This document shows positions 3,813-53,829 of a stretch of DNA of 64,000 nucleotides, in pieces. How positions within the stretch are numbered: the stretch's first letter is position 1; each line of letters starts with the position of its first letter. The DNA is from Pseudomonas sp. LD120 (GTDB taxonomy: Bacteria > Pseudomonadota > Gammaproteobacteria > Pseudomonadales > Pseudomonadaceae), in NCBI RefSeq assembly GCF_009861525.1, contig NZ_WVHL01000003.1, positions 1-64,000 on the forward strand, in the 5' to 3' direction. The notes under the pieces were generated by a model that was not told where the DNA came from, did not search any database, and saw only the letters and a program-made list of their open reading frames with translations. The translations under genes and the position numbers were made by a program.

Positions 3813-3818
3813 TGTTTT

Positions 3819-12638: not shown

Positions 12639-12656
12639 GGCCCGGATTATATCCAA

Positions 12657-13016: not shown

Positions 13017-13403
13017 GAGGTACTGGCTCCTGAAAGAGTTGAGGAGCACAGCTTCGAGCATCAGATTTCGACTTGGAATGTGGGCTTTATGGGGCGCATA
13101 CGAACATCCGTTTCGGGTGATCAAGCGTCAGTTCGGTTATGTGAAGACCCGCTTCCGTGGCCTGGCCAAGAATACGGCGCAATTGACCACACTGTTCGCG
13201 CTGTCGAATCTGTGGATGGTGCGCCGGCAATTATTGCCTGCTGCGGGAGAGGTGCGCCCGTGAGGGCAGAAAACCAAGGCTATGCCTTGGTTTTCCAATA
13301 ATCAGCGGCTGAAAATCGGGGTTTTCGGCATCTCCAAGCCGTCCATTTGCGGCTGGTGGGTAACTTGTTCGGAGAATCCTTAGGAAAAGCACCCCGCGTC
13401 TTA

Positions 13404-28851: not shown

Positions 28852-28952
28852 TTAAGTGAGCAGCATTACCCGAGAGAAGTGCCTTCAAGGGACAAGCTGA
28901 GCTACATTGACCTCGCCAACCGGGACGCACCTTGTCACTTGAGGATTCAGGG

Positions 28953-29429: not shown

Positions 29430-29430
29430 T

Positions 29431-30234
29431 ATGGATCGCCGCCGCGCCCTGGCGCTTGAATACGCGGAGCACCAATACCTGCGGGCCCGGGTCCAGGGTG
29501 TGGTGAGTTTGCCGGGAAACCCTTATCAGGCGCAGCTCTATGGTGATCAGGATTGCGGAGCCTTTGTCGTGGGCGGCAATCCCAGTCCGATGATGAACCG
29601 GGTGCACGGCGACAGTGCGCAACAAGCCCACAATCTTGCCGATCTGCTACAGACCTGCGTGGCTTACGCCCCGGCGATCGCCTTGATCGCCGAGTCAGCC
29701 AAGGTGGCGCCCACTCTGGAGCTGGAGGGGCAGCAACTGCAGCGCCTCAGGGGCTGGACCCACGGACAGCTGTTCGCCTCGGTGGACGAACTGGTGGCGC
29801 CGCCTTCGGCGCTGGATATCGAGCCGGTGTTCGCCTCGACCCTGGAAAGCTTCTGTGCTCTGCACCGCGAAGGCTTCAATACCCCTGCGGCCGCCCGGCC
29901 AGTCAACCAGGCAGCCTTCGGCGGCTTGCTCAACGACGGACGTGGGCATCTGTACCTGCTGCGGGACCAGGGCGTTGCGGTGGCCGGTGCGGCGCTATTC
30001 GTCGCCGACAATGGCGTGGCCTACCTGGGCACCGCCTTTACCACCAAGGTCGCCCGGGGCCAGGGCTATCACCGGGCCCTGATCGCCCATCGCTTGCAGC
30101 AGGCCGTCGCCCTCGGCGCCCAGAGTGTGGCGGCCACCGCCCTGGTGAACTCGCAAAGCCGGCGCAACCTGGAGCACTACGGCTTGCGCCTGTCCCACCT
30201 GCAAACCCTGTATCGGGCCGAGTCACAGGGCTAG
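29431..30234 (+). CDS. GNAT-type acetyltransferase, copy A
   Basis: A 267-residue protein with a GNAT C-terminal domain: GVAVAGAALFVADNGVAYLGTAFT, then the acetyl-CoA motif ARGQGYHRALIAHRLQQAV (the R/Q-x-x-G-x-G/A part), and the N-terminal half forms a second unassigned α/β domain. The substrate is unknown. It begins 1 base after the HIT stop and overlaps the DUF4087 gene end by 4 bases on the opposite strand. A second copy with a 5' deletion exists at 44573-45244. Confidence 0.82.
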   Translation: MDRRRALALEYAEHQYLRARVQGVVSLPGNPYQAQLYGDQDCGAFVVGGNPSPMMNRVHGDSAQQAHNLADLLQTCVAYAPAIALIAESAKVAPTLELEGQQLQRLRGWTHGQLFASVDELVAPPSALDIEPVFASTLESFCALHREGFNTPAAARPVNQAAFGGLLNDGRGHLYLLRDQGVAVAGAALFVADNGVAYLGTAFTTKVARGQGYHRALIAHRLQQAVALGAQSVAATALVNSQSRRNLEHYGLRLSHLQTLYRAESQG

Positions 30235-31094
30235 CGCTGTGGCGTTGTCGGCGCCGGGTCGAAGCGGATCGAGTACAGAATCGCCCTCAGGGTGGCGAAG
30301 TCCTGGAAGAAACCCACGCTATCAGCCACCACCTGACGCTGGCCGCTGTCGAGCACCGCCATCAGGCAGGTGCCGCCAGCGGCGTGGAAGCCAGTTTGCT
30401 CATCGCTGACGCCGCAGGTTTGATAAGCCAGCAGGCCTTGCCAGCCGGGGCCACTCAGTTTCTGTACCGGGCTGGGCGCGTCCTTTCCGGCGCTGCGCAT
30501 CCACACGCCGTTTTCCTGATAGAAAAACAAACCTTCGGCGGCCTGTTCCAGGCTGCCCTGCTGCAGGCACAGGTGCAGGGTGTATTCCTCCTGGGGGCGT
30601 TTTTTCGGGTGGTCCAGGGTGAGGCAGTTCTGCGCCTGGCCAAGCTTCCAGCCTTTGGGGTATTGCAGGCTGAAGCCCTGACCCTTGAAGCGTGGTGAAT
30701 CCTTGGGCAATACCGGAACTCCGGCTTCCTCGCGCAAGGGTTCGTACAGGCTGGGATCGTTGCGACAGGCAGACAGCGGGCGGGCCTTGGCCTTGTGCAA
30801 TTGGTCGAGGCGATGGGTCTGTGGATCAGCACTGGCGCTGACGCAGGCACAGCCGTAGCCGTAATGATTGTTGGTCCGTACCCATTGCTGATCGTTGAAG
30901 GTGGGCCAGTCGCCCTCGGCCTGATAACCGCCCTGGCTGGCAATTTCCCAGACGCCGTCGCGGTCGGTCAGGGTGGCGTTGGCCGGCGTCGGGTTCTTGA
31001 ACCAGCCGCATCGGCGTTCGATCTTAGCCGTCGCGGCGCTGGCGGGTAAGGCAATCAGTGTCAGGAGTGTGCAGATCAGGGCGCATTGCAGCAT
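30231..31094 (-). CDS. Secreted DUF4087-domain protein, copy A
   Basis: A 287-residue exported protein. A signal peptide is clear (hydrophobic residues 2-18, ALPASAA cleavage region). The mature N-terminus (ERRCGWFKNPTPANATLTDR, then DGVWEIASQGGYQAEG) matches the DUF4087 family. The C-terminal half, from about residue 140, has four or more cysteines (C157, C175 and the later TCGVSD, GTCLMAV), suggesting disulphides in the periplasm. The function is unknown. It is convergent with the GNAT gene and divergent from the lipoprotein gene. A disrupted copy is at 45241-48152. Confidence 0.78.
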   Translation of the reverse strand: MLQCALICTLLTLIALPASAATAKIERRCGWFKNPTPANATLTDRDGVWEIASQGGYQAEGDWPTFNDQQWVRTNNHYGYGCACVSASADPQTHRLDQLHKAKARPLSACRNDPSLYEPLREEAGVPVLPKDSPRFKGQGFSLQYPKGWKLGQAQNCLTLDHPKKRPQEEYTLHLCLQQGSLEQAAEGLFFYQENGVWMRSAGKDAPSPVQKLSGPGWQGLLAYQTCGVSDEQTGFHAAGGTCLMAVLDSGQRQVVADSVGFFQDFATLRAILYSIRFDPAPTTPQR

Positions 31095-31184
31095 GGAGCA
31101 TCCTTGTTCGGTGAGTGATGGAGGCGAAACTCAAGTACTCTCGCCCCTGGCTTTTCAGCCATTCATGGAGATCAGGAAGATTTT

Positions 31185-31823
31185 ATGCAAAGGACGCTGT
31201 GTGCAGTGATGAGCCTGTCGCTTATTGCTTCGTCCATGGGGGGCTGTGCCTCGCATGCCAAACCCCGGGTCGCGGGCCCACAGGTTTATGGCTATACCCT
31301 CAATCAACGGCTCTCCACCGACGCGTTCAAGGCACTGTCCGATACCGGTAGGGAGACGATGAGCGGACTCTCGATCTATGAGCTGAAAGACCCTGAAGGT
31401 GTCAGGCTCAAGTTGTATCTGGAACGCACCCTGTGGGTGGATAGAGTCGAGAAGGTCAGTACTCCGTTCGACGTCGAAAGTGATTGCGAGAATGCCTTGA
31501 AAGATGAAACTGCGCGGTTGCAGTCGACGATTGCCGAGTTCAATTCCCGTCAAGCCCGTTCGGGCGGTGCGCCTCGTCAGGTTGGAGATATCTACGCCAG
31601 TCAGTCAACGACCCCATGCACGCGTAAAGGCGGCAGAGATGCGGATGCCCAGAGCTACCGCTATGAGCTCTCTGCCAGCCTGAGCACCGAAACCGCGCCG
31701 GTCAAACACGGACTGTCGGAAAAGGTTGAAAACGCCTACATGGGGATGTGGATGGGCGTCTTCACCATCGTTCTCCTACCTTTTGCGTTGATCGGTGCGG
31801 CAGTGGACGCCGTGACTGATTGA
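31185..31823 (+). CDS. Lipoprotein of unknown function, copy A
   Basis: A 212-residue predicted lipoprotein. The signal peptide ends in the lipobox SSMGGC (cysteine about residue 21). The body has a central region with two cysteines (about C106 and C145), and a hydrophobic C-terminal segment (GVFTIVLLPFALIGAAVDAV) that could be a transmembrane anchor. It resembles no family I can name. The gene at 48243-48881 encodes an identical protein. Confidence 0.75.
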   Translation: MQRTLCAVMSLSLIASSMGGCASHAKPRVAGPQVYGYTLNQRLSTDAFKALSDTGRETMSGLSIYELKDPEGVRLKLYLERTLWVDRVEKVSTPFDVESDCENALKDETARLQSTIAEFNSRQARSGGAPRQVGDIYASQSTTPCTRKGGRDADAQSYRYELSASLSTETAPVKHGLSEKVENAYMGMWMGVFTIVLLPFALIGAAVDAVTD

Positions 31824-31830
31824 TCGCCGT

Positions 31831-32460
31831 TCAATAGCGCCACTTGCGCACCAGGTCCTCGCTGAAGCGCTGGCTGATCAGCGCTTCGGCGCTGTCATCG
31901 TCGTCATGCACCTCTGCCAGGCACAGCAGCATCAGCGCATCCAGGTACTCCTCGGGGGCGTCGAAGAAGCGCGTCAGCGCTGTGCCGGTGTCGTGATCGA
32001 AGTAGTAGACCGCGCCGCTTTCCCGATGGAAACAGAACATATTGCCGTTGCCCAGGTAGTCGCCAAAGGCAACCAGCTGGTGCGCCAGTGCCAGGTCCAG
32101 ATCGCTCTCGGGGATATCGACAATGCCAGGGTAGGCCTCCAGCAGAGGCTGGATCGGGGTATGGCCGGGGCCTACGCTGCAAAGGATCTCCGCCAGTGAC
32201 AAGACCCCCAACTGCCGATGATAGTTGCGCAGAGAGGGCGGCAAGGCACAGCCCAGGCGCTGCTCCAGGGCCAGCAGGGCCTCCTCGCTGACGGGGGTTA
32301 ATTCCGGCTCGTTGACGTGGCCTTCCCACAGCGCAGCGTAGGCGCCGATGACCGCGAGGTACCAGCTCAGCCGCGCGGCTTGATCAGGCAGGTCCGGCCA
32401 GGCCAGGGGCGGGCAGCCGGCAGGGGGCCGGTCGGCCATAGCGTTATGCTGTTCTGACAT
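31831..32460 (-). CDS. SMI1/KNR4 (SUKH)-like protein, copy A
   Basis: A 209-residue soluble acidic protein. The central part, LTPVSEEALLALEQRLGCAL, PPSLRNYHRQLGVLSLAEIL and GDYLGNGNMFCFHRESGAVYYFDHDT, is the typical SMI1/KNR4 (SUKH) pattern. SUKH proteins are often immunity proteins of polymorphic toxins, but no toxin gene lies beside this one. An IS66 copy is inserted 17 bases upstream of the ATG, just beyond the ribosome site AAGGACT. The native promoter is therefore displaced; expression would depend on the element. Confidence 0.8.
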   Translation of the reverse strand: MSEQHNAMADRPPAGCPPLAWPDLPDQAARLSWYLAVIGAYAALWEGHVNEPELTPVSEEALLALEQRLGCALPPSLRNYHRQLGVLSLAEILCSVGPGHTPIQPLLEAYPGIVDIPESDLDLALAHQLVAFGDYLGNGNMFCFHRESGAVYYFDHDTGTALTRFFDAPEEYLDALMLLCLAEVHDDDDSAEALISQRFSEDLVRKWRY

Positions 32461-32522
32461 GAGGAGTCCTTAGATGAGTATGCGATCCATAAACCCCACC
32501 TGCCCAGTGGTGGAGCAACGGT

Positions 32523-34067
32523 CTACCGTGGCATCTGCGGCGAGCAGTTCCACGGCAGTAGCGCCTCGTAGTCCTTTACTGACGAGGCATGCGGCAGCCG
32601 CTCTAGTACGTGGCGTAGCCACGTATAAGGCTCTTGGCCGTTGACCTTGGCGGTCTCGACCAGGCTGTAGATCTTCGCGCTGGCAGTGGCGCCGTTGACG
32701 GTATCGCTGAACAGCCAGGCCTTGCGCCCGATGACAAACGGCTTGATCGCTCTTTCGGCCGCGTTGTTGTCGATGGGCAAATAACCCGCTTCGACATAAC
32801 GCTCCAGTCGGCTCCAGTTATTCGCCAGATAATGCACCGCCTTGCCTAATGCACTTTGCGGCGTCACCTGGGATTGGGTTTTATCCAACCAGACTTTCAG
32901 CTGCCCCAAGATCGGCAGGCTCTTTTCCTGGCGAGCGATAAACCGCTGTTCATCATCGGCTTCCTTAAGTTCATGCTCGATCCCGTACAGCTTGTTGATC
33001 ATCGTCAGCGCGATATCGGCCCGTCCGGTTTTACCCTTGGGCTGCACTTTTTGCGCGTCCACGAACTTGCGTCGTGTATGGGCCATGCACGCCAAGCGCT
33101 CCACACCCGATTGCAATGCCAACGCGTTATAGCCGGCGTAGTCGTCGGTCATGACATAACCGCGATAACTTTCCAGCAGCCGTAACGGCACCTCCTGCGC
33201 ACGACTGGACGTGTAGTCAAACAACACGACTTTACGATCGGGTGGGCCGCTGGCTTGTACCCACATCCAGGATTGGCTGGTCGGGTCTCGATCCGGTTCT
33301 TTCAACACCTGGACACGGGTTTCATCGCAGTGGATGACCGGACTTTCCAGCAGCCGGTCACGCATCAAATTGATCAGCGGCTGAAAGTGTTCGCTGCACT
33401 GGATGATCCAGCGCGCCAGCGTTTGCCGAGGGATCTCGATGCCGTGTCGGCTCAGCACACTTTCAAAACGGTGCAGCGGCAGACCATCGACGTATTTAGT
33501 CGTTAGCAGCATGGCCAATACGCTTGGACTGGCCATGCTCTTTTCGATCAATTGCGCCGGTTTGTCGGCGGTGACCGGTGCACGTTCACAACCACGGCAA
33601 CCGTAGATCTTGCGGATATGTTTGATGACGCGGATCTGCATCGGCACGATATCCAGCTGCTCGCTGGTTTCTTCGCTGATCACATGCTTGCGGCAACCGC
33701 AGGCACAGGTCAGTTCGTGTTCGGGTAGTTCGTGGATGACTTCGATACGCGGCAGATCGGCCGACAACGGCTTGCGTTTGCCACGGCATGCGGTCGGCTC
33801 AACAACTTCTTCATCGGCGTCACCGACTGAAGGCATCGGCTCGCTTTCAGGCTCATTGAACAAGGCCAGTTGTGGCGTATTGGGCTCAACGGTTTGCTCG
33901 GACTTACGCCCGAACAGACGGTCGCGCAACAGCTTGATCTGTTCTTTCAGGTCGACGATGTGGGTCTGATAAGCCTGGGCCGATTCCTCTTGGCGACTGA
34001 GTGCCTCAAGCAGCAGTTGCTTGAGCAAAACAGGATCATCAGGAAGGTCATCGGGCAGAGAAATCAT
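32523..34067 (-). CDS. tnpC: IS66 transposase TnpC, copy 2
   Basis: A 514-residue TnpC, intact. It diverges from the other copies in the N-terminal helix and linker ([18 protein letters not shown] instead of [13 protein letters not shown]) and matches them almost exactly in the catalytic domain. That pattern suggests recombination between IS66 variants. It keeps the cysteine zinc site and the C-terminal [16 protein letters not shown] motif. Confidence 0.93.
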
Positions 34068-34085
34068 GGCCCGGATTATACCGGG

Positions 34086-34445
34086 TCACGCCACGTAGCG
34101 CGGGGTCAAAACTTGATGAGGGCGGTTGCGCCAGAGGTCGAAACCGTCGAGCAGCCAGTTCAGTTCCTGGACGCTCAACACAATGGCCTCGTCGGTTACA
34201 TCGGGCGATGTTTTAAAACGCTCGGATTCGAGGCGCTTGAGCCAAAGGCAAAAGCCGTTGCGCTCCCAATACAAAATCTTCACCCGGTTGCGGGACTTGT
34301 TGAGGAAGACGAAAAGCACTGGGTCGAATACCGCCACTTTTATATCCAACTCGACCAGCGCGGCCAGACCGTCGATGGATTTTCGGAAGTCGACAGGCTT
34401 GGGGTAGAGATAGACTTTTTCGACTTTGGCGTCGGGTCGCATCAT
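34086..34445 (-). CDS. tnpB: IS66 accessory protein TnpB, copy 2
   Basis: A 119-residue TnpB with the [20 protein letters not shown] and FVFLNKSRNRVKILYWERNG signatures, 18 bases before tnpC. The start is the paired ATG at 34445/34442. Confidence 0.9.
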   Translation of the reverse strand: MMRPDAKVEKVYLYPKPVDFRKSIDGLAALVELDIKVAVFDPVLFVFLNKSRNRVKILYWERNGFCLWLKRLESERFKTSPDVTDEAIVLSVQELNWLLDGFDLWRNRPHQVLTPRYVA

Positions 34446-34651
34446 GGTGGGGCTGGCTCCAGAAAGAGATCGGGAGCACAGCATTAGGGATCAGCTTGGC
34501 ACTTTGAATGTGGGGTTGATGGAGCGCTTACTTAGATGAGAAGGAGGCAGGGGAGATGATGTGCTACGGCACCGGCATTTCAGGATGATGCTTGAGGGGC
34601 TGGTTTGTATGCGATCCATAAACCCCACCTACCCAGTGGTTGAGCAACGAT

Positions 34652-36184
34652 CTACCGTGGCATCTGCGGCGAGCAGTTCCACGGCAGTAGCGCCTCGTAG
34701 TCCTTTACTGACGAGGCATGCGGCAGCCGCTCTAGTACGTGGCGTAGCCACGTATAAGGCTCTTGGCCGTTGACCTTGGCGGTCTCGACCAGGCTGTAGA
34801 TCTTCGCGCTAGCACTGGCGCCATTGACGGTATCGCTGAACAACCAGGCCTTGCGCCCGATGACAAACGGCTTGATCGCTCTTTCGGCCGTGTTGTTGTC
34901 GATGGGCAAATAACCCGCTTCGACATAACGCTCCAGTCGGCTCCAGTTATTCGCCAGATAATGCACCGCCTTGCCTAATGCACTTTGCGGCGTCACCTGG
35001 GATTGGGTTTTATCCAACCAGACTTTCAGCTGCCCCAAGATCGGCAGGCTCTTTTCCTGGCGAACGATAAACCGCTGTTCATCATCGGCTTCCTTAAGTT
35101 CACGCTCGATCCCGTACAGCTTGTTGATCATCGTCAGCGCGATATCGGCCCGTCCGGTTTTACCCTTGGGCTGCACTTTTTGCGCGTCCACGAACTTGCG
35201 TCGTGCATGGGCCATGCACGCCAAGCGCTCCACACCCGATTGCAACGCCAACGCGTTATAGCCGGCGTAGTCGTCGGTCATGACATAACCGCGATAACTT
35301 TCCAGCAGCCGCAGTGGCTCTTCCTGCGCACGACTGGACGTGTAGTCAAACAACACGACTTTACGATCTGGCGGGCCGCTGGCTTGCACCCACATCCAGG
35401 ATTGGCTGGTCGGATCTCGATCCGGCTCTTTCAACACCTGGACACGGGTTTCATCGCAGTGGATGACCGGACTTTCCAGCAGCCGGTCACGCATCAAATT
35501 CAGGAGTGGCTGAAAGTGTTCGCTGCACTGGATCACCCAGCGAGCCAGAGTTTGCCGAGGGATCTCGACACCGTGGCGAGCGAGGACTTTTTCGAAGCGG
35601 TGCAGCGGCAGACCATCGACGTACTTGGTGGTCAGCAGCATCGCCAACACACTCGGACTGGCCATGCTCTTTTCGATCAGTTGCGTAGGTTTGTCAGCCG
35701 TGACCGGGGCTGCTTCGCAGCCCCGGCAGCCGTAGACTTTGCGGATATGTTTGATCACGCGGATCTGCATCGGCACGATCTCTAGCTGTTCGCTGGTTTC
35801 TTCGCCGATGGCGTGTTTGCGGCAACCGCAGCCGCAAGTCAGTTCGTGTTCGGGTAGTTCGTGGATGACCTCGATCCGAGGCAGATCGGCTGATAGTGGT
35901 TTACGTTTACCTCGGCGTTTAGTCGGGGCAACGACTTCTTCGTCAGAGGTGTCGGAGACCGGAACCGCAAAGCTTTCGGGTTCATTAAAGAGCACGAGCT
36001 GCGGCGTCTGCGGATCGACGGTTTGCTCTAACTTACGCCCGAAAAAACGTTCACGCCATAGTTTGATCTGCTCTTTCAGGTCAACAATCTGGTCTTTGTC
36101 CACCTGACGCTCACTGAGCATCTGCACAAGCATTTGCTTGAGCAGAACCGGATCATCAGGGAGGTCGTCGGGCATGGAAATCAT
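34652..36184 (-). CDS. tnpC: IS66 transposase TnpC, copy 3
   Basis: A 510-residue intact TnpC. It shares with copy 5 the residues [12 protein letters not shown] and [11 protein letters not shown] that are not in copy 1. The start is the ATG giving [11 protein letters not shown]. Confidence 0.93.
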
Positions 36185-36202
36185 GGCCCGGATTATATCC
36201 AA

Positions 36203-36562
36203 CTATGCGACAAATCGCGGCGTCAAAACCTGATGTGGCCGGTTGCGCCACAGATCAAAACCGTCGAGTAACCAGTTCAGTTCCTGAGCCGTCAGGACAA
36301 TGGCTTCATTCGTGTCGTCAGGGGAGGTTTTGAACCGTTCGGCTTCCAGACGTTTGAGCCACAGACAGAAACCGTTGCGCTCCCAATACAACACTTTGAT
36401 GCGGTTACGGGCTTTGTTGAGGAAGACAAAAAGTACCGGATCGAACACGGCGACTTTGATATCCAGCTCGACCAGCGCGGTCAGACCGTCTATGGATTTT
36501 CGAAAGTCTACGGGCTTGGGGTAGAGGTAGACTTTTTCCACTTTTGCATCGGGTCGCATCAT
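36203..36562 (-). CDS. tnpB: IS66 accessory protein TnpB, copy 3
   Basis: A 119-residue TnpB, with the family motifs [14 protein letters not shown] and [17 protein letters not shown], 18 bases before tnpC. Its [18 protein letters not shown] segment matches copy 5 rather than copy 1. Confidence 0.9.
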
Positions 36563-36648
36563 GAGGTACTGGCTCCAAAAAAGAAATCGGGAGCGCAGCA
36601 TCGGGCATCAGTTGAGTGCTTTGAATGTGTGGTTTGTGGAGCGCTTAC

Positions 36649-36941
36649 ACAACAACGCGGCCGAAAGAGCGATCAAGCCGTTTATCATCGGGCGCAAGGC
36701 CTGGTTGTTCAGCGATACCGTCAATGGCGCCAGTGCCAGCGCGAAGATCTACAGCCTGGTCGAGGCCGCCAAGGTCAACGGCCAAGAGCCCTATACGTGG
36801 CTGCGCCATGTACTAGAGCGGCTGCCGCATGCCTCGTCAGTAAAGGACTACGAGGCGCTACTGCCGTGGAACTGCTCGCCGCAGATGCCACGATAGACCG
36901 TTGCTCCACCACTGGGTAGGTGGGGTTTATGGATCGCATAC
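36649..36941 (+). mobile_element. IS66 remnant, copy 4 (tnpC 3' end and terminal repeat)
   Basis: A 293-base fragment in the opposite orientation to copy 3. It encodes the last ~82 residues of TnpC ([20 protein letters not shown] to SPQMPR, stop at 36894-36896) and ends in the terminal repeat at 36920-36941. Copy 3 lies directly against it, so it probably landed inside this element, after which the remainder was deleted. Confidence 0.9.
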
Positions 36942-37076
36942 AGTGAAACGCCAACCGTTTTACGTTGAGTCGTGCTGGATCGACGGTTGCACGTAGTAGG
37001 GGTATCTCCAGAAGTTCGATTGCGCCAGCGGCAATCTTTATTAAATATCTACCTCACTTTGAAATAAATGTGGTTT

Positions 37077-37098
37077 GTAGCGTCATTTAAGACGCTAC
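37077..37098 (-). terminator. Hairpin at the end of the polysaccharide operon
   Basis: A perfect 8-base inverted repeat, GTAGCGTC and GACGCTAC with a 6-base loop, starts a few bases after the stop of the last glycosyltransferase gene. The T run is weak on the minus strand, so it may be a hairpin that stabilises or ends the transcript. Confidence 0.5.
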
Positions 37099-37101
37099 GA
37101 A

Positions 37102-38355
37102 TTACTTTCCATCCTTGCTTCTCAGGCGCGCATGACGGAATAACTTCTCAAGGCGATCGAACAATTTATCTTTTGAGAAGTTTTCAAAGTAGAAACTTTT
37201 ACCTGAGGCGCCCATCGTTTGATGTTGAGCTGGAGATAGCGCTGCCATGGAGCGCACAATACTTGCCAATCCATCGGAGTCACCAGAGTTGCAGGTCATG
37301 CCTGCCCCGGCATCTTTAATTACTCGTGCCGCTTCACCTTCAATCATCGCTAGAATTGGCTTTCCAGAGGCTAGATAGGCTTGCACTTTGCCTGGAATGG
37401 TTTTTTCAAAAACCTCATTGGTTTTCAGGGACACTAATAAAGCATCTGCTGCTGCGAATAGCGGAGGCATTTTCTCCAGGGGATGACGTCCCAAGAGAAA
37501 AACATTGTCCAACCCACGCGCAGCAACTTGTTCATGCAACCAATTACTGGCGCGCCCGTCTCCAACGATGATCCACCGTAAGGGAAACTCAGACTTCAGT
37601 GTCTCTACTGCTCGTAATATCGTTGGAAAATCTTGCGCATCGCCTAGATTGCCAGCGAATACTATAGTGAAAGTCGAGTCGTCACGCTCGAGGATATCCG
37701 AAGGGGTCGCTACATCAGCAGAAAAGTCATCTTCGGCCCAGCTGGGAAAGTAAACGACTCTTTCTGGAGCTATATACTTGGTGCAGTAGTTTTTTATGTT
37801 TTCCTCAAAGGATTTTGACTGTAAGAGTAAGTAGTCTGTGCGGTTATAGATCCACGAGACCAACTTTCCAACGAGGCCAATGATTTTTCGGTTTTTTATA
37901 ATTCCAACCGCACCAAGAGTTTCCGGCCACAGGTCAAGGACCCAAAGAAAAACAGGAGACTTTTTGAGGCGACCTATAACCAGCGCCGGTATAGCGGCCA
38001 TGATTGGAGATACTGCGTAGACAAAAATTGCATCAAAGTGCTTTTCGCGAAGTTTGTAAGCACCTATGGTTGATGCACTGGAGAAGAAAGAAAGGTAATT
38101 AAGCGCCAAGGTTATACTTCGTCGGCCACGTGCAAGCATTGGAACTCTATATATCTCAGCTCCAAAATAACTGGAATAGAAATCTGGGTTTTTCCGATAT
38201 TCTGGAAATGCCTGGCCTTCGGGGTAGTTTGGCTGTCCAGTTAGAATAGTTACTTCATGGCCCTTTGCAATAAAACCCTCAACCATATTGTTGATACGCA
38301 TATTTTCTGGCCAGAAGTATTGACTGACAACCAGGATTTTTAATGGTTTATCCAT
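37102..38355 (-). CDS. Glycosyltransferase family 4 (WbjE/WbuB-like)
   Basis: A 417-residue GT4 enzyme. The N-terminal Rossmann-like start is KILVVSQYFWPENMRINNMV, then the GQPNYPEG motif. The C-terminal domain has FAGNLGDAQDF, VGDGR and the EX7E-type region around FEKTIPGKVQAYLASGKPIL. The best resemblance is to WbuB/WbjE enzymes thought to add L-FucNAc to lipid-linked O-antigen precursors. It is the last gene of the minus-strand operon, 15 bases after the FnlC-like gene, which supports this role. The acceptor sugar is unknown. Confidence 0.82.
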   Translation of the reverse strand: MDKPLKILVVSQYFWPENMRINNMVEGFIAKGHEVTILTGQPNYPEGQAFPEYRKNPDFYSSYFGAEIYRVPMLARGRRSITLALNYLSFFSSASTIGAYKLREKHFDAIFVYAVSPIMAAIPALVIGRLKKSPVFLWVLDLWPETLGAVGIIKNRKIIGLVGKLVSWIYNRTDYLLLQSKSFEENIKNYCTKYIAPERVVYFPSWAEDDFSADVATPSDILERDDSTFTIVFAGNLGDAQDFPTILRAVETLKSEFPLRWIIVGDGRASNWLHEQVAARGLDNVFLLGRHPLEKMPPLFAAADALLVSLKTNEVFEKTIPGKVQAYLASGKPILAMIEGEAARVIKDAGAGMTCNSGDSDGLASIVRSMAALSPAQHQTMGASGKSFYFENFSKDKLFDRLEKLFRHARLRSKDGK

Positions 38356-38370
38356 GCGTTTAGCGTCCGC

Positions 38371-40624: not shown

Positions 40625-40628
40625 CCCA

Positions 40629-41663: not shown

Positions 41664-42867
41664 TTTTTGTCTCGCTAATGGATTTTAGTAGTTTTTCAAC
41701 TTGCAATTTTGGTAGTTTATTTTCAATGATGAATTTTTTTGCAGATATTCCTGTCTTAAAAAGTTCTTTTTCTGAAAGCAGAGAAAGCTCTATTAGTTTG
41801 TTTTTTAATCCGTCGGGGCCTGGTGGTATAAGGTAACAATATTGGTGGTATTCATCCGGGATCCCGTCAAGCCAATACATTAGTACAGGTACGCCAGAGG
41901 ACATATATTCAATTATTTTAGAGGGGAAGGAATATTTTGTATACTCTGACTCATTATCTCTAGGGTTGATTAAAAGTGTCGCGTTTTTTTGGAGGGTTAA
42001 TACTTTTTCTCGATCAAGTTGCCCCAGATACTTTATGTTTGCTCCGTTGGAAATGGCATTTTCAATATAGTCTCTATCGTCGCCGTCACCGCAAATGTAA
42101 AGTTTGTAGTCTTTGAGGTCGGATGCTATATAAGAATTAATCAGTTGTCTTATTCCGTAACGCTGATCAAGAGTGCCGCTATATAAAAAGTACTTCTTTC
42201 GCTCTGTTATGTCTGCGGTAGAGATGTACTGAGGGTCTGCAATTCCTTCTATTAATACCTTGTTTAGTTTGTTGGGGAATTTGTTGGTCATATGTTTTGT
42301 AATAACTACGACGCTGTCGAATTTTGAAGCTGTTATGTATGATATACGAGAAAGCAAGCTGAATACAAATTTGCTTACTCCTTTTCTAGCTGCCATGTAT
42401 TCTGGGAGGTCTGGAGCTATTATGCATAAGTGCATGTCTTTTTTAAATAGTTTTACAAAGTAGCAGCCAAGTAAAAAAGGTAGGTGCATAGAGTAGCAGA
42501 GTAATATTGTTTTGCTGTTGTTGAGTTCCTTTGTTTCTGAAAGTATTAACTTGGCAGACAGAAAAAGTCTGTGGAGATTTTTCAGAAATATGAGGTTTAA
42601 GAATGGCGTGTTTTTAATTGTGACTCGGCCTAGGTATTCGGTCTTGTTGGCTGGTAGGAAGAAGATGTTTTTATATCTTTTGGGGTAAGCTCCTATAAAG
42701 GGTAGGTTTATAACTGATATTGAGTCTACTTCTTTGTTTTTAGATAGTCCTTCGATATAGTTTTTTTGTAGCGTGTCAGCAGCGAACTGCATTCCTCCTT
42801 TCGAATTAAGAAGAATGTCTGATTTGTTGCCTTTGCTGAAAATTCCACCCAGAAAAATAATATTCAT
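41656..42867 (-). CDS. Glycosyltransferase family 4, AT-rich
   Basis: A 403-residue GT4-type protein of much lower GC than the surrounding genome. The C-terminal half shows YSGTLDQRYGIRQLINSY, ICGDGDDRDYI, and the INPRDNESEYTKYSFPSKII motif with its E-x7-E-like arrangement (SKIIEYMSSGVPVL). The N-terminal half has hydrophobic segments (TILLCYSMHLPFLLGCYF) that may touch the membrane. The donor and acceptor are unknown. CAGGAAAG precedes the ATG at 42867. It follows the flippase by 107 bases. Confidence 0.8.
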   Translation of the reverse strand: MNIIFLGGIFSKGNKSDILLNSKGGMQFAADTLQKNYIEGLSKNKEVDSISVINLPFIGAYPKRYKNIFFLPANKTEYLGRVTIKNTPFLNLIFLKNLHRLFLSAKLILSETKELNNSKTILLCYSMHLPFLLGCYFVKLFKKDMHLCIIAPDLPEYMAARKGVSKFVFSLLSRISYITASKFDSVVVITKHMTNKFPNKLNKVLIEGIADPQYISTADITERKKYFLYSGTLDQRYGIRQLINSYIASDLKDYKLYICGDGDDRDYIENAISNGANIKYLGQLDREKVLTLQKNATLLINPRDNESEYTKYSFPSKIIEYMSSGVPVLMYWLDGIPDEYHQYCYLIPPGPDGLKNKLIELSLLSEKELFKTGISAKKFIIENKLPKLQVEKLLKSISETKNV

Positions 42868-42974
42868 ATGCTTTCCTGTCAGATAGGTTGTGTATTTGTA
42901 TTCATTTGAATGGGATGGCGGTTTTTTAAGTGGTTTGTGGTGTCTCTCGATTTTAAAGAGAGTTTCAAAAAATA

Positions 42975-44225
42975 CTAATGGTTATTTATTTTTCTTGTTA
43001 AGTAAATGCAGTAAAGTATTTCTAAGGCTGCTGAGCTCACCAAGGCAAAAACAACAGAGAAAATACTCCAGCTTAATAGTAGGTAGATGATGCATAATAG
43101 AAAGAATGAAAATAATGAGATGACTTGGTTTTTTAGGACGAAATCATATTTTTTGTGTGGGACGAAAATAAAGTAAATATAGCTGCTAACTATTGGGTAA
43201 GTGATTACGTTAAGGCTTAGTAGGATTGAAAGGTAGTAGGAGTCTCTCATGTTGTGTGTGGAAACTAAGTCAACAATCAAGTCACCAAACAAGGCAATAG
43301 ATATAATGCATAGTAAACCGACAAAGGTCTCGGCTTTTATTATCATCTTTATTGTGTTGTGATTGATGTTTTTAACTAGTGCAGGGAAAATTGCGGAGTT
43401 TATATTAGAAACAACCAAGCTTGGAACTGAGAATATTTTGTTGGCTAAGTCATAAATGGCGACTTCTCGCATGCCAAACATAGAGCCTATGATGATCTCA
43501 ATGCTTCTCTGTTTGAATGTACTTACTGCTCCAGACCAAAAGAAAGGTTGTACCTCATGTAAGATGAGTTTTATATCTGAAATAGAGGGTGGGGTGAGTT
43601 TTATGCGAATAAGACGGCTTGCTAGAAAAAAGGCAGTAACAGATGAAAGTATGTTTGAGGAGATTACAAAAAAAGCGTACCACTCAATGTCTGTTTTGTC
43701 TTTTACAAAAAGATAAATAGCAGGTAGTGATAGGGCCTTGAAGAAAAGTTGTGTTATTGTAAGTGCCTTCATTTTTTGTATTCCGTGAAAGTACCATGTA
43801 GGTAGGAATACACATGACATAATGTTGGCGAAACACAGGGAAAATATTTTCCAGTTGGAGTTTAAACTGGGTAAGCAAAAAACTATTATACAAAATAGCA
43901 GGGTGGAAATAAGTGCTAAAAATATCTTGGATGCGGTAATTAAGGATAGTAGTGAAGAGTGTAGTTGTTTGTTGTTTGGTTCTGTTGATATAAGTTTTGC
44001 TGTGTGTATGTCAAAGCCAAAGTTTATGAAGACCGCAAAGTATGCTGCAATACTTGAGGCGAAAATGAAAAGGCCGAAGCTTTCTGCTCCGACTTGATTT
44101 ATAACAAAAGGGTAAATTAAAAGATAAAAAAATGAATTGATAATTTGCAAGCTTGTCATGTGGAAGTAATTGCTTGCCACATTCTTGTTTCTTAAGTAAA
44201 GTTTTTTAATGTCTGAGATTTTCAA
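42975..44225 (-). CDS. wzx: Polysaccharide flippase (Wzx-like), TTG start
   Basis: A 416-residue membrane protein of the MOP/Wzx type, with 10-12 hydrophobic segments over its full length. Typical segments are LLIYPFVINQVGAESFGLF and FFWSGAVSTFKQRSIEIIIG. It moves lipid-linked O-units across the inner membrane. The most upstream in-frame codon with a sensible fold start is TTG at 44225 (MKISDIKKLYLRNKN), which overlaps the stop of the small upstream frame (TTGA). The next in-frame ATG is 22 codons in. It is very AT-rich, so horizontally acquired. Confidence 0.8.
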   Translation of the reverse strand: MKISDIKKLYLRNKNVASNYFHMTSLQIINSFFYLLIYPFVINQVGAESFGLFIFASSIAAYFAVFINFGFDIHTAKLISTEPNNKQLHSSLLSLITASKIFLALISTLLFCIIVFCLPSLNSNWKIFSLCFANIMSCVFLPTWYFHGIQKMKALTITQLFFKALSLPAIYLFVKDKTDIEWYAFFVISSNILSSVTAFFLASRLIRIKLTPPSISDIKLILHEVQPFFWSGAVSTFKQRSIEIIIGSMFGMREVAIYDLANKIFSVPSLVVSNINSAIFPALVKNINHNTIKMIIKAETFVGLLCIISIALFGDLIVDLVSTHNMRDSYYLSILLSLNVITYPIVSSYIYFIFVPHKKYDFVLKNQVISLFSFFLLCIIYLLLSWSIFSVVFALVSSAALEILYCIYLTRKINNH

Positions 44226-44407
44226 AGAGGTGTCTCACAATAAATATGGCGTTTTAATGTTTTGGTTGTTAAATGTCGATGGTGAAGTAATTTTTTTATT
44301 AAGGCTCTATTTGGTGCTTTGAAGTCATAACTGTCTATAAAAATTATCTGGTTCTCTGGTGGTGATTTAGTTTTGAAATTTCTGTTGTCGGACATTGAGG
44401 CTCCCAA
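44222..44407 (-). CDS. Small frame at the 5' end of the polysaccharide operon, possible truncated gene
   Basis: A 61-residue frame with two ATG options (44407 or 44395). Its TGA overlaps the flippase TTG, which suggests it was translated upstream of it. The sequence (FIDSYDFKAPNRALIKKLLH) is not recognised. It probably is the tail of a larger upstream gene lost at the island edge; it may equally be spurious. Confidence 0.35.
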   Translation of the reverse strand: MGASMSDNRNFKTKSPPENQIIFIDSYDFKAPNRALIKKLLHHRHLTTKTLKRHIYCETPL

Positions 44408-44626
44408 GGTCTTTGGTCAGGATACACCCCCAAAAATCTGCTGGTTCTTTGAGCAATACGCTAGCCTTTGAGCATTTTCCTAAAACTGCGTGATAGTAAC
44501 GACCTATATGCGTATCTTGTAGCTCTTTTCGTTTAATTCGGTGGATTAGCACGTTCACTGGGGGGGGGCAGTGTGCTGTGCTCAGCGGATGGGATAGGGG
44601 GGAATTTTATGAACACTACTTCATTT
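44408..44626. other. Island junction sequence
   Basis: About 220 bases between the small frame and the start of homology to the HIT gene. It includes a run of nine G at 44560-44568. Frames here are short, and I see no promoter or JUMPstart-like element. It marks the right edge of the island. Confidence 0.5.
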
Positions 44627-45244
44627 AGCGTCCGTACCTGGATAAGGTGTTCGACGATCTGGCGGCAGCCCAACGGCGCCCCGGCGATCGCCTTGATCGC
44701 CGAGTCAGCCAAGGTGGCGAGCGCTCTGGAGCTTGAAGGGCAGTCGTTGCAGCGTCTCAAGGGCTGGACCTACGGGCAGTTGTTCGCCTCGCTGGACAAG
44801 TGTGTTGCGCCCTCTTCGGCGCTGGATATCGAACCGGTGACGGCCTCTACCCTGGAAGACTTCTGCGCGCTGCATGGCGAAAGCTTCAATACCCCTGCGG
44901 CCGCCCGGCCAGTCAACCAGGCAGCCTTCGGCGGCTTGCTCAACGACGGACGTGGGCATCTGTACCTGCTGCGGGACCAGGGCGTTGCGGTGGCCGGTGC
45001 GGCGCTATTCGTCGCCGACAATGGCGTGGCCTACCTGGGCACCGCCTTTACCACCAAGGCCGCCCGGGGCCAGGGCTATCACCGGGCCCTGATCGCCCAT
45101 CGCTTGCAGCAGGCCGTCGCCCTCGGCGCCCAGAGTGTGGCGGCCACCGCCCTGGTGAACTCGCAAAGCCGGCGCAACCTGGAGCACTACGGCTTGCGCC
45201 TGTCCCACCTGCAAACCCTGTATCGGGCCGAGTCACAGGGCTAG
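44573..45244 (+). pseudogene. GNAT acetyltransferase, copy B, 5'-truncated
   Basis: The frame from about 44677 encodes residues ~80-267 of the GNAT protein at 29431-30234. The first part is diverged, and the last ~115 residues are identical except for one substitution (TKAARGQG versus TKVARGQG). An upstream in-frame ATG at 44609 gives a chimeric 211-residue product, but the N-terminal domain is missing, so I call it a pseudogene. Confidence 0.85.
44627..44676 (+). pseudogene. HIT gene remnant fused to GNAT
   Basis: About 50 bases that in one frame encode RPYLDKVFDDLAAAQRR, matching RQHLYQVFDGLLAAQRR in the middle of the HIT protein at 28953-29429. Homology to the GNAT gene starts directly afterwards, at codon ~80 of GNAT. 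A deletion therefore removed the rest of HIT and the start of GNAT. Confidence 0.85.
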
Positions 45245-45540
45245 CGCTGTGGCGTTGTCGGCGCCGGGTCGAAGCGGATCGAGTACAGAATCGCCCTCAG
45301 GGTGGCGAAGTCCTGGAAGAAACCCACGCTATCAGCCACCACCTGACGCTGGCCGCTGTCGAGCACCGCCATCAGGCAGGTGCCGCCATAGGCGTGAAAG
45401 CCGGTGTCCCCATCGCTGATGCCGCAGGTCTGATAGGCCAGCAGGCCTTTCCAGCGTAAGCGCCCCATAAAGCCCACATTCCAAGTCGAAATCTGATGCT
45501 CGAAGCTGTGCTCCTCAACTCTTTCAGGAGCCAGTACCTC

Positions 45541-45900
45541 ATGATGCGACCCGATGCAAAAGTGGAAAAAGTCTACCTCTACCCCAAGCCCGTAGACTTT
45601 CGAAAATCCATAGACGGTCTGACCGCGCTGGTCGAGCTGGATATCAAAGTCGCCGTGTTCGATCCGGTACTTTTTGTCTTCCTCAACAAAGCCCGTAACC
45701 GCATCAAAGTGTTGTATTGGGAGCGCAACGGTTTCTGTCTGTGGCTCAAACGTCTGGAAGCCGAACGGTTCAAAACCTCCCCTGACGACACGAATGAAGC
45801 CATTGTCCTGACGGCTCAGGAACTGAACTGGTTACTCGACGGTTTTGATCTGTGGCGCAACCGGCCACATCAGGTTTTGACGCCGCGATTTGTCGCATAG
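45541..45900 (+). CDS. tnpB: IS66 accessory protein TnpB, copy 5
   Basis: A 119-residue TnpB identical in the visible protein to copy 3. It has the paired ATG start, the [10 protein letters not shown] motif and an 18-base gap to tnpC. Confidence 0.92.
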   Translation: MMRPDAKVEKVYLYPKPVDFRKSIDGLTALVELDIKVAVFDPVLFVFLNKARNRIKVLYWERNGFCLWLKRLEAERFKTSPDDTNEAIVLTAQELNWLLDGFDLWRNRPHQVLTPRFVA

Positions 45901-45918
45901 TTGGATATAATCCGGGCC

Positions 45919-47451
45919 ATGATTTCCATGCCCGACGACCTCCCTGATGATCCGGTTCTGCTCAAGCAAATGCTTGTGCAGATGCTCAGTGAGCGTCAGG
46001 TGGACAAAGACCAGATTGTTGACCTGAAAGAGCAGATCAAACTATGGCGTGAACGTTTTTTCGGGCGTAAGTTAGAGCAAACCGTCGATCCGCAGACGCC
46101 GCAGCTCGTGCTCTTTAATGAACCCGAAAGCTTTGCGGTTCCGGTCTCCGACACCTCTGACGAAGAAGTCGTTGCCCCGACTAAACGCCGAGGTAAACGT
46201 AAACCACTATCAGCCGATCTGCCTCGGATCGAGGTCATCCACGAACTACCCGAACACGAACTGACTTGCGGCTGCGGTTGCCGCAAACACGCCATCGGCG
46301 AAGAAACCAGCGAACAGCTAGAGATCGTGCCGATGCAGATCCGCGTGATCAAACATATCCGCAAAGTCTACGGCTGCCGGGGCTGCGAAGCAGCCCCGGT
46401 CACGGCTGACAAACCTACGCAACTGATCGAAAAGAGCATGGCCAGTCCGAGTGTGTTGGCGATGCTGCTGACCACCAAGTACGTCGATGGTCTGCCGCTG
46501 CACCGCTTCGAAAAAGTCCTCGCTCGCCACGGTGTCGAGATCCCTCGGCAAACTCTGGCTCGCTGGGTGATCCAGTGCAGCGAACACTTTCAGCCACTCC
46601 TGAATTTGATGCGTGACCGGCTGCTGGAAAGTCCGGTCATCCACTGCGATGAAACCCGTGTCCAGGTGTTGAAAGAGCCGGATCGAGATCCGACCAGCCA
46701 ATCCTGGATGTGGGTGCAAGCCAGCGGCCCGCCAGATCGTAAAGTCGTGTTGTTTGACTACACGTCCAGTCGTGCGCAGGAAGAGCCACTGCGGCTGCTG
46801 GAAAGTTATCGCGGTTATGTCATGACCGACGACTACGCCGGCTATAACGCGTTGGCGTTGCAATCGGGTGTGGAGCGCTTGGCGTGCATGGCCCATGCAC
46901 GACGCAAGTTCGTGGACGCGCAAAAAGTGCAGCCCAAGGGTAAAACCGGACGGGCCGATATCGCGCTGACGATGATCAACAAGCTGTACGGGATCGAGCG
47001 TGAACTTAAGGAAGCCGATGATGAACAGCGGTTTATCGTTCGCCAGGAAAAGAGCCTGCCGATCTTGGGGCAGCTGAAAGTCTGGTTGGATAAAACCCAA
47101 TCCCAGGTGACGCCGCAAAGTGCATTAGGCAAGGCGGTGCATTATCTGGCGAATAACTGGAGCCGACTGGAGCGTTATGTCGAAGCGGGTTATTTGCCCA
47201 TCGACAACAACACGGCCGAAAGAGCGATCAAGCCGTTTGTCATCGGGCGCAAGGCCTGGTTGTTCAGCGATACCGTCAATGGCGCCAGTGCTAGCGCGAA
47301 GATCTACAGCCTGGTCGAGACCGCCAAGGTCAACGGCCAAGAGCCTTATACGTGGCTACGCCACGTACTAGAGCGGCTGCCGCATGCCTCGTCAGTAAAG
47401 GACTACGAGGCGCTACTGCCGTGGAACTGCTCGCCCGAAATGCCACGGTAG
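45919..47451 (+). CDS. tnpC: IS66 transposase TnpC, copy 5
   Basis: A 510-residue TnpC, the same as copy 3 except at the C-terminal end (SPEMPR versus SPQMPR). The zinc site and DDE motifs ([26 protein letters not shown]) are present, so it may be active. Confidence 0.94.
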
Positions 47452-48242
47452 ATCGTTGCTCAACCACTGGGTAGGTGGGGTTTATGGATCGCATACTTTC
47501 CAGCCGGGGCCTGAAATCTCTTGCACCGGGCTGGGCGCGTCCTTTCCGGCGCTGCGCATCCACACGCCGTTTTCCTGATAGAAAAACAAACCTTCGGCGG
47601 CCTGTTCCAGGCTGCCCTGCTGCGGGCACAGGTGGAGGGTGTACTCCTCGTTTGGGCGTTTTTCGGGTGGTCCAGGGTGAGGCAGTTCTGCGCCTGGCCG
47701 AGCTTCCAACCTTTGGGGTATTGCAGGCTGAAGCCCTGGGCCTTGAAGCGTGGTGAATCCTTGGGCAATACCGGAACTCCGGCTTCCTCGCGCAAGGGTT
47801 CGTACAGGCTGGGATCGTCGCGACAGGCAGACAGCGGGCGGGCCTTGGCCTTGTGCAACTGGTCGAGGCGATGAGTCTGTGGATCAGCGTTGGCGCTGAC
47901 ACAAGCACAGCCGTAGCCGTAATGATTGTTGGTCCGTACCCATTGCTGATCGTTGAAGGTGGGCCAGTCGCCCTCGGCCTGATAGCCGCCCTGAGTGGCG
48001 ATGTCCCAGACGCCGTCGTGGTCGGTGAGGGTGGCATTGGCCGGGGTCGGGTTCTTGAACCAGCCGCATCGGCGTTCGACCTTGGCCGGAGCGGCGCTGG
48101 CGGGTAAGGCAATCAGTGTCAGGAGTGTGCAGATCAGGGCGCATTGCAGCATGGAGCATCCTTGTTCGGTGAGTGATGGAGGCGAAACTCAAGTACTCTC
48201 GCCCCTGGCTTTTCAGCCATTCATGGAGATCAGGAAGATTTT

Positions 48243-48881
48243 ATGCAAAGGACGCTGTGTGCAGTGATGAGCCTGTCGCTTATTGCTTCGTCCATGGGGG
48301 GCTGTGCCTCGCATGCCAAACCCCGGGTCGCGGGCCCACAGGTTTATGGCTATACCCTCAATCAACGGCTCTCCACCGACGCGTTCAAGGCACTGTCCGA
48401 TACCGGTAGGGAGACGATGAGCGGACTCTCGATCTATGAGCTGAAAGACCCTGAAGGTGTCAGGCTCAAGTTGTATCTGGAACGCACCCTGTGGGTGGAT
48501 AGAGTCGAGAAGGTCAGTACTCCGTTCGACGTCGAAAGTGATTGCGAGAATGCCTTGAAAGATGAAACTGCGCGGTTGCAGTCGACGATTGCCGAGTTCA
48601 ATTCCCGTCAAGCCCGTTCGGGCGGTGCGCCTCGTCAGGTTGGAGATATCTACGCCAGTCAGTCAACGACCCCATGCACGCGTAAAGGCGGCAGAGATGC
48701 GGATGCCCAGAGCTACCGCTATGAGCTCTCTGCCAGCCTGAGCACCGAAACCGCGCCGGTCAAACACGGACTGTCGGAAAAGGTTGAAAACGCCTACATG
48801 GGGATGTGGATGGGCGTCTTCACCATCGTTCTCCTACCTTTTGCGTTGATCGGTGCGGCAGTGGACGCCGTGACTGATTGA
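48243..48881 (+). CDS. Lipoprotein of unknown function, copy B
   Basis: A 212-residue product identical to the one at 31185-31823, including the lipobox SSMGGC and the hydrophobic C-terminus. The flanking DNA is also the same for some way on both sides. Identity here, next to diverged stretches in the neighbours, indicates recent recombination between the copies. Confidence 0.78.
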   Translation: MQRTLCAVMSLSLIASSMGGCASHAKPRVAGPQVYGYTLNQRLSTDAFKALSDTGRETMSGLSIYELKDPEGVRLKLYLERTLWVDRVEKVSTPFDVESDCENALKDETARLQSTIAEFNSRQARSGGAPRQVGDIYASQSTTPCTRKGGRDADAQSYRYELSASLSTETAPVKHGLSEKVENAYMGMWMGVFTIVLLPFALIGAAVDAVTD

Positions 48882-48888
48882 TCGCCGT

Positions 48889-49515
48889 TCAATAGCGCCA
48901 CTTGCGCACCAGGTCCTCGCCGAAGCGCTGGCTGATCAGCGCTTCGGCGCTGTCATCGTCGTCATGCACCTCTGCCAGGCACAGCAGCATCAGCGCATCC
49001 AGGTACTCCTCGGGGGCGTCGAAGAAGCGCGTCAGCGCTGTGCCGGTGTCGTGATCGAAGTAGTAGACCGCGCCGCTTTCCCGATGGAAACAGAACATAT
49101 TGCCGTTGCCCAGATAGTCACCGAAGGCGACCAACTGCCGGGCCAGGGGCAGTTCCAGGTCGGTGTCGGGGATATCGACTATGCCCGGATAGGCCTCAAG
49201 CAATGGTTGGATCGGCGTGTGGCCAGGGCCGACGCTGCACAGGATTTCCGCCAGTGACAAGACCCCCAACTGCCGATGATAGTTGCGCAGAGAGGGCGGC
49301 AAGGCACAGCCCAGGCGCTGCTCCAGGGCCAGCAGGGCCTCCTCGCTGACGGGGGTTAATTCCGGCTCGTTGACGTGGCCTTCCCACAGCGCAGCGTAGG
49401 CGCCGATGACCGCGAGGTACCAGCTCAGCCGCGCGGCTTGATCAGGCAGGTCCGGCCAGGCCAGGGGCGGGCAGCCGGCAGGGGGCCATTGCTCGGAGGT
49501 GGTTTGATCGGTCAT
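48889..49515 (-). CDS. SMI1/KNR4 (SUKH)-like protein, copy B
   Basis: A 208-residue SUKH-type protein. Its N-terminus (MTDQTTSEQW) differs from copy A, as do about 50 residues in the middle at the DNA level (PDTDLELPLARQL here against PESDLDLALAHQL). The rest is identical. It has an AAGGACG ribosome site before the ATG at 49515, so, unlike copy A, its native 5' region is intact. It is divergent from the amidohydrolase at 49668. Confidence 0.8.
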   Translation of the reverse strand: MTDQTTSEQWPPAGCPPLAWPDLPDQAARLSWYLAVIGAYAALWEGHVNEPELTPVSEEALLALEQRLGCALPPSLRNYHRQLGVLSLAEILCSVGPGHTPIQPLLEAYPGIVDIPDTDLELPLARQLVAFGDYLGNGNMFCFHRESGAVYYFDHDTGTALTRFFDAPEEYLDALMLLCLAEVHDDDDSAEALISQRFGEDLVRKWRY

Positions 49516-49667
49516 GGAGCGTCCTTGCGAGGGTGTCGGGAAGGGGAAAGCTTTATCCATGGCTTGAACACATGGGTCAAGCCTGATGAGCGCTGCGGAC
49601 ATTGTTGGCGGCAAGGTCCGGATTTAGCCTGTGGTTTCGATCTTGAATACATAGGGGGGACCGCCCA

Positions 49668-53779: not shown

Positions 53780-53829
53780 TTTGTGTCGTTAGACTCAGGG
53801 TACCTTTGGCCCATTCGACAGGTGATCCT

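Follow-up and report, generated by a model that had tools for sequence, protein, structure and literature searches.

Gene content of the locus and its duplicated block

The window analysed here, the first 64,000 nucleotides of contig NZ_WVHL01000003.1 of Pseudomonas sp. LD120, contains a polysaccharide island with a copy (A and B) of the same four-gene block on either side, the block genes encoding a GNAT acetyltransferase, a DUF4087 protein, a putative lipoprotein and a SUKH-1 protein. From the left, the order is HIT, the four genes of copy A, two insertion sequences (IS) of the IS66 type (copies 1 and 2), an IS66 stump and six polysaccharide genes; to the right of the latter follow the truncated GNAT gene, DUF4087 with IS66 copy 3, the lipoprotein gene and SUKH of copy B, and then an amidohydrolase gene. 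The features are as follows, percentages being identities to the named strain or genome.

28932-29429, plus strand: HIT-domain gene, conserved left neighbour (PF01230)
29428-30234, plus strand: GNAT acetyltransferase gene, copy A (PF00583)
30231-31094, minus strand: DUF4087 gene, copy A, intact (PF13316)
31185-31823, plus strand: putative lipoprotein gene, copy A (N-terminus judged by eye)
31831-32460, minus strand: SUKH-1 gene, copy A (PF09346)
32430-32477, resuming at 34540-34606 past IS66 copy 1: SUKH upstream edge of P. protegens type (short matches)
32478-34531, minus strand: IS66 copy 1, complete, 8-bp target duplication at both sides
34607-36648, minus strand: IS66 copy 2, complete, without target duplication
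36649-36941, plus strand: IS66 end fragment, inverted, adjoining copy 2
37102-38355, minus strand: glycosyltransferase gene, wbuB-like (PF13692; 63% to the same-place gene in genome G418)
38371-39501, minus strand: UDP-GlcNAc 2-epimerase-type gene, wbjD/fnlC-like (PF02350; TIGR00236 above cut-off)
39494-40654, minus strand: UDP-2-acetamido-2,6-dideoxy-hexulose reductase gene, wbjC-like (NF047837, 677.6 bits, cut-off 500)
40629-41663, minus strand: UDP-GlcNAc 4,6-dehydratase/5-epimerase gene, fnlA/wbjB-like (TIGR04130, 672.6 bits, under the cut-off of 730)
41656-42867, minus strand: glycosyltransferase family 1 gene (PF00534)
42975-44225, minus strand: O-unit flippase gene, wzx-like (PF01943)
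44629-44676, plus strand: short HIT-like remnant fused with mid-GNAT of copy B (weak evidence)
44677-45244, plus strand: GNAT gene, copy B, 5'-truncated (from alignment to copy A)
45241-48152, minus strand: DUF4087 gene, copy B, disrupted by a frameshift and by the insertion of IS66 copy 3
45456-47496, plus strand: IS66 copy 3, complete, 8-bp target duplication, splitting copy B
48243-48881, plus strand: putative lipoprotein gene, copy B
48889-49515, minus strand: SUKH-1 gene, copy B, with its own 5' end and middle (PF09346)
49488-49667: intact island-free SUKH-amidohydrolase intergenic junction (93.9% to Au-Pse12)
49668-50498, plus strand: amidohydrolase gene, conserved right neighbour (PF04909; 97% at the amino acid level to FD6)

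No Pfam or NCBIfam family matched the lipoprotein gene. The labels wbuB, wbjB-D, wbpV, wbpL, wbpM, rpsA, ihfB, comEA and fnlC are ones that we presume to apply on the grounds of domain hits or gene order.

A preliminary description of this DNA had placed the four-gene block on both sides of the island in direct orientation, and self-comparison of the window bears this out: 29667-30445 pairs with 44677-45455 at 94.2% identity and 30437-32429 with 47496-49487 at 96.5%, block A thus spanning 29667-32429 and block B consisting of 44677-45455 plus 47496-49487 with IS66 in between. Across the 6 contigs (6.67 Mb) of the genome just two places matched the block, both in the window and both on one contig of 1,709,349 bases, with three pieces matched. 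The GNAT gene of copy B has no start and its DUF4087 gene is broken; its lipoprotein gene and SUKH are intact. Upon piecewise alignment the two copies differ at 115 of 2763 bases. Identical runs of 830 (31033-31862), 328 (30051-30378), 241 (32189-32429), 192 and 177 bases are found beside diverged stretches at the GNAT start (29710-29872), in parts of DUF4087 and in the middle of SUKH (32056-32188), and the 5' ends of the two SUKH genes are unlike each other as well. In 20,000 uniform random placements of the 115 differences the longest identical run did not exceed 309 bases, compared with the 830 observed, so that the mosaic cannot be put down to chance. The alternation of identical segments (the lipoprotein genes, which agree letter for letter, and the GNAT end) with diverged ones (SUKH middle, GNAT start), to which the same description had drawn attention, is thereby substantiated.

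Among the IS66 elements, copy 1 has a counterpart 1.3 Mb distant in the genome that agrees with it at all 2054 bases, and the stump beside copy 2 is likely the scar of an IS66-adjacent rearrangement. A truncated IS66 adjoining a complete one is also seen at contig coordinates 1367584-1370551, the complete element there being identical to window positions 32478-34531, and another complete IS66 with an 8-bp target duplication lies at window positions 11061-13101.

The polysaccharide island and its right edge

The island stands out by a guanine-plus-cytosine (GC) content of 41% at 36942-44560 versus 65% and 62% in the flanks. Features of a Wzx/Wzy cluster are present in the form of the flippase, nucleotide-sugar enzymes and glycosyltransferases. 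We found neither an open reading frame (ORF) for the polymerase Wzy nor a remnant of one in the island, with a gap of 107 bases at the position of the polymerase-like gene of genomes G418 and G390, and for lack of a polymerase gene the island was classed as O-antigen-type and not counted among complete Wzy clusters. In the O-specific antigen (OSA) locus of G418 and G390 the order is flippase, one gene, a polymerase-like gene (with an EpsG family domain in G418), glycosyltransferase, the fnlA-, wbjC-, wbjD- and wbuB-like genes and an epimerase; the two genes that follow the flippase there are missing from the island. Within 398 genomes the flippase was matched in two besides its own at E <= 1e-40, with identities of 51-56%; its next best homologues, one of them from P. 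protegens, stand at 70-72%. A donor search covered 298 genomes of the genus, the own one included; among the matches listed, those other than the window to itself fell on its positions 37138-41676 (wbuB to wbjB), and the long genus matches to the island were about 64-74% identical.

The genome's own OSA locus is reduced, having kept wbpV-, wbpL- and wbpM-like genes and holding none of the island's genes. It is equally compact in FD6, G061, Fl4BN1 and MC042, and about 6 to 10 kb longer in 14B2, PH1b and G398. Relocation of the strain's own OSA genes into the window was considered and set aside as unneeded, given the equal compactness of this locus in the former four genomes. The locus (C3:645-651 kb) is followed by a nest of insertion sequences, with IS66 copies and ORFs resembling, by eye, transposases of the IS3 and IS110 types; locus and nest together take up positions 1726-13003 of C3:645000-662000. 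The island would make and flip a unit containing N-acetyl-L-fucosamine (L-FucNAc) in conjunction with the initiating transferase and dehydratase of the OSA locus; what it would supply is probably a short, unpolymerised O-unit, with initiation provided by the OSA locus.

At the right edge, comparison of positions 44226-44628 with 15 loci from 10 related genomes yielded no match, and the complete loci of FD6 and G061 were equally without one. The adjacent HIT-like segment (44629-44676) resembles the HIT genes of G061 (75% identity, 48 bases, E 1.8e-4) and G398 (80%, 41 bases, E 4e-6) in a small comparison set; when the genus was searched, its identity to G398 was 82%, over 44 bases. When 44540-44680 was compared with the 398 genomes, a single one besides its own responded, the match lying in its HIT gene. 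If the remnant is real, it would faintly suggest that copy B once extended into HIT.

The site in relatives and the origin of the tandem arrangement

A pattern scan with a SUKH alignment, using one genome per species for 84,980 species, returned 26 loci, nine of them from Pseudomonas, with P. protegens 14B2 and FD6 as the nearest. These nine loci (18.7-20.6 kb each) together with G061 and G398 make up the eleven relatives considered here. The recurrent gene order, with gaps, is HIT, GNAT, (DUF4087), (lipoprotein), SUKH, (amidohydrolase), DUF3592. HIT lies beside GNAT in eight of the nine Pseudomonas loci, with none among the matches listed for the ninth, and each of the nine has a single SUKH gene. 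The lipoprotein gene was not found in FD6, 14B2 or G061. In a comparison with related genomes, such as the preliminary description had proposed, two of the eleven relatives, P. protegens FD6 (about 21 kb) and G061 (about 16 kb), carry other O-antigen-type clusters at the same site between SUKH and amidohydrolase. These two clusters, in which the domains of ten proteins were checked, have their ends in common and the centre swapped. No cluster is present at this site in the other nine (14B2, Au-Pse12, Fl4BN1, P. piscis MC042, PH1b, 14D6, MAFF 302030, MF4836 and G398), and the amidohydrolase gene is lost or decayed in some cluster-free relatives. In 14B2, just its 3' end is found beside SUKH (locus positions 9212-9435), possibly the scar of a lost cluster. 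Two intact SUKH genes were seen in none of the examined stretches of the eleven relatives, and upon scanning 115 genomes, the own one included, a strong SUKH match was obtained in the own genome and G061 only. G398 (locus positions 11300-14100) has no island and carries decayed pieces of a tandem block: DUF4087, a lipoprotein gene of type a, 111 bases of a SUKH 3' end, 96 bases of a DUF4087 3' end, a lipoprotein gene of type b and a whole SUKH. The type b product, whose gene adjoins the right SUKH, is 85% identical in amino acid sequence to the lipoprotein of the window.

The two copies in the window differ in their affinities to these relatives. In binned identities, GNAT A is 97-100% identical to FD6 over 29428-30207, mismatches to FD6 amounting to 31 in the preceding 492 bases (HIT) and 16 in the next 797. 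A tree of GNAT positions 29667-29890 groups A with FD6 (support 97/93), with B nearest to G061 (90%); from about 29873 onwards, GNAT B turns A-like. The GNAT end tract is thus A-type in both copies, and it is the sole exchange tract that shows a direction. SUKH A is 97-100% identical to P. protegens over 32071-32190, a segment in which SUKH B reaches at most 83% to everything compared. The SUKH start shared by both copies is nearest to P. protegens at 32191-32310 (88-93%) and to Au-Pse12 at 32371-32429 (92% versus 78-83% for three P. protegens-type genomes). Upstream of SUKH A, the 31 bases up to IS66 copy 1 are 90% identical to FD6 and 87% to G061, and the edge past this copy (34532-34606) is 72% identical to 14B2 over 69 columns, both being short matches; among the three genomes with this P. 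protegens-type edge allele, two have it occupied by a cluster (FD6 and G061, not 14B2). Next to SUKH B, in turn, all 180 bases of the intergenic region toward the amidohydrolase gene are 93.9% identical to Au-Pse12, which is island-free at the site. The affinities of A and B hence differ at the GNAT start, the SUKH middle and the upstream edge, yet both copies are mosaic, and no clean parent accounts for DUF4087. On this pattern, the window would hold two alleles in tandem, A with a P. protegens-type edge by the island and B with an island-free junction, and the presence of identical stretches within a mosaic of differing affinities argues for tracts having been exchanged between the copies. 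A single direction of conversion from B to A was dropped, as finer bins show the GNAT tract to be A-type and the SUKH-start tract to be without clear direction. As to which copy is native, the conserved left flank adjoins A and the conserved right one B, but there is no simple answer with both being mosaics.

We favor, with moderate confidence, the account that one-sided, single-crossover-like recombination placed a piece of an island-bearing allele next to the resident, island-free one instead of substituting it. An incoming fragment consisting of block and island would have found its homologous partner in the resident block at one end; its other end would have been joined without extended homology, leaving copy B 5'-truncated; circularisation with a trimmed end, followed by a single crossover, could have led to the same product. 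Exchange of tracts between copies A and B would have come later, along with at least three IS66 insertions and an IS66-adjacent rearrangement that likely trimmed the left edge of the island. We give one-sided addition precedence over two-sided recombination because no extended homology was found at the right edge in the loci compared and copy B has kept the whole island-free junction. One mark of such an addition is observed, namely that the homologous arm stands as a direct repeat on both sides of the island. The earlier proposal of a foreign segment that entered by recombination at homologous genes, with subsequent gene conversion, thus survives in part: the foreign-looking composition, the two allele types and the later exchange are borne out, but for the mode of entry one-sided addition is a better description than ordinary two-sided recombination, and a duplication older than the island has some likelihood in view of G398. 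The favored account predicts that 17,058 bases (the spacing of the A/B identical tracts), including the island, would be lost through a crossover within the identical tract of 830 bases, and that an island-free locus would remain.

Several points weigh against this account. The HIT-like remnant, at 75-82% identity to its best matches in G061 and G398, is less similar than either parent should give; the tree of the SUKH middle has no strongly supported fork; and DUF4087 of B is closer to FD6 than is DUF4087 of A. The latter finding, together with the shared SUKH start being split between P. protegens and Au-Pse12 affinity, means that no clean donor can be named. The edge of copy A marks a P. 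protegens-type allele but is no proof of an occupied one, being a short match that also occurs in the island-free 14B2; it is this latter circumstance, and the fact that only one exchange tract has a clear direction, that temper our conclusion. The decayed tandem of G398 indicates that the duplication may have preceded the island, and among the genomes compared there was neither a strain with the island and a single block nor a circle.

The alternative that fares best, although rather unlikely in our view, is that the block was duplicated in tandem long ago within the group, the copies diverged, relatives kept either one, and the island entered between them later. It draws genuine support from the island-free tandem pieces of G398 and would accommodate its type b lipoprotein gene beside the right SUKH and the occurrence of the copy A edge in 14B2. 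It is harder to reconcile with the single-block genomes FD6 and G061, whose cluster is found, as here, beyond a similar edge on the corresponding side of SUKH, with the upstream edge of A matching P. protegens and that of B Au-Pse12, and with the extent of the repeated unit, which includes GNAT and possibly HIT in the window but no GNAT in G398. Improbable, to our mind, is a sequence of two events, in which the island first arrived through ordinary two-sided allele replacement, as in FD6, and another exchange, with an island-free strain, then put block B between the island and the amidohydrolase gene. FD6 and G061 do exhibit the intermediate (block, cluster, amidohydrolase) for other clusters; nevertheless, two events are required here, and one addition directly explains the intact island-free intergenic region beside B. 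More improbable still is an assembly artefact or a mixed culture of two strains, to which two alleles of one locus in one assembly might point: the contig is a single one of 1.71 Mb, contamination is 1.09%, the IS copies have clean target duplications, and the two block copies are the sole matches in the genome, so that no second intact locus is left over. That a composite IS66 transposon imported the island and duplicated the block is hardly credible, even though inverted full copies (34607-36648 and 45456-47496) flank the cluster and 9 of the 21 IS66 matches listed for the genome are full-length: in place of the single target duplication expected outside an IS66 pair, copies 1 and 3 each have their own duplication and sit inside block or edge sequence, which marks each of them as a separate insertion, and copy 2 has none; this speaks strongly against such a carrier, and we know of no IS transposition that duplicates 2.8 kb of host DNA.

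Elsewhere in the window, two adjacent minus-strand genes of 308 and 304 amino acids (1426-5738) form a tandem repeat (88% over 1.45 kb) beside a gene for 639 amino acids; none of the three matched a Pfam family at E 1e-3, and by eye they resemble an effector-like gene with a duplicated partner. A small VapB/VapC-like pair, likewise recognised by eye, lies at 53827-54461; it is found beside a DedA gene in Au-Pse12 too (99% and 92% amino acid identity).

Relation to known systems

In this locus a single chromosome contains an island-bearing and an island-free allele next to each other, and the tracts of exchange can still be made out; in our judgement such intermediate steps of O-antigen type exchange between strains are seldom caught. 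The locus would allow for a direct test of the stability of the stacked state, of the rate of island loss and of the effect on sensitivity to phages and tailocins. The O-antigen is a documented receptor for a phage and a tailocin in P. protegens (PMC10715155; PMC9213528). One may speculate, though we consider it doubtful, that the SUKH block serves as a pair of portable homology arms by which islands enter via additive single crossover, stack, and loop out again through tracts kept alike by conversion, enabling reversible and heritable surface switching under phage or tailocin attack; the tandem of G398 would then be an exit scar. Our literature search retrieved no paper that links O-antigen gene clusters of Pseudomonas to both gene conversion and direct repeats, and the combination of O-antigen with single crossover, tandem or merodiploid yielded only work that seemed unrelated by title; both statements are confined to that search.

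The OSA-type locus of G418 and G390 shares with the island the order of flippase, glycosyltransferase and fnlA-, wbjC-, wbjD- and wbuB-like genes, but differs from it in that the island is devoid of the EpsG-family gene and one more, and has its wbpV/wbpL/wbpM-like counterparts elsewhere in the genome. O-antigen clusters of P. protegens are described as variable and low in GC, with insertion sequences (PMC10715155). OBC3 of P. protegens CHA0 is likewise a low-GC O-antigen cluster that occupies a conserved variable site, contains insertion sequences and shows signs of horizontal acquisition; unlike the island, which is located between SUKH and GNAT/amidohydrolase, it lies between aer_2 and a CPBP protease gene, and the excerpted text describes no flanking block duplication (PMC10715155).

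With respect to mechanism, one-sided addition is also the proposed route by which immunity genes became stacked in Vibrio (PMC5361080). Stacked orphan immunity genes of the Vibrio type VI secretion system (T6SS) resemble the window in that the added module leaves the resident allele behind; they differ in that the module here is one of polysaccharide genes and no effector is recognised in the block (PMC5361080). The SUKH family represented in the repeated block also has immunity proteins among its members. A further parallel is given by the products of Campbell-type or homology-facilitated illegitimate recombination, where one side is homologous, the other is without extended homology, and the arm is duplicated with one copy truncated (PMC3240628). 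In E. coli, an arm-duplication product of the polymerase chain reaction was obtained in 56 of 60 clones, 14 of them sequence-confirmed, from which the authors infer single crossovers of a trimmed circle (PMC3240628). Compared with those products, the arrangement described here would be a natural one of 15 kb that unites diverged alleles and underwent later exchange between the copies.

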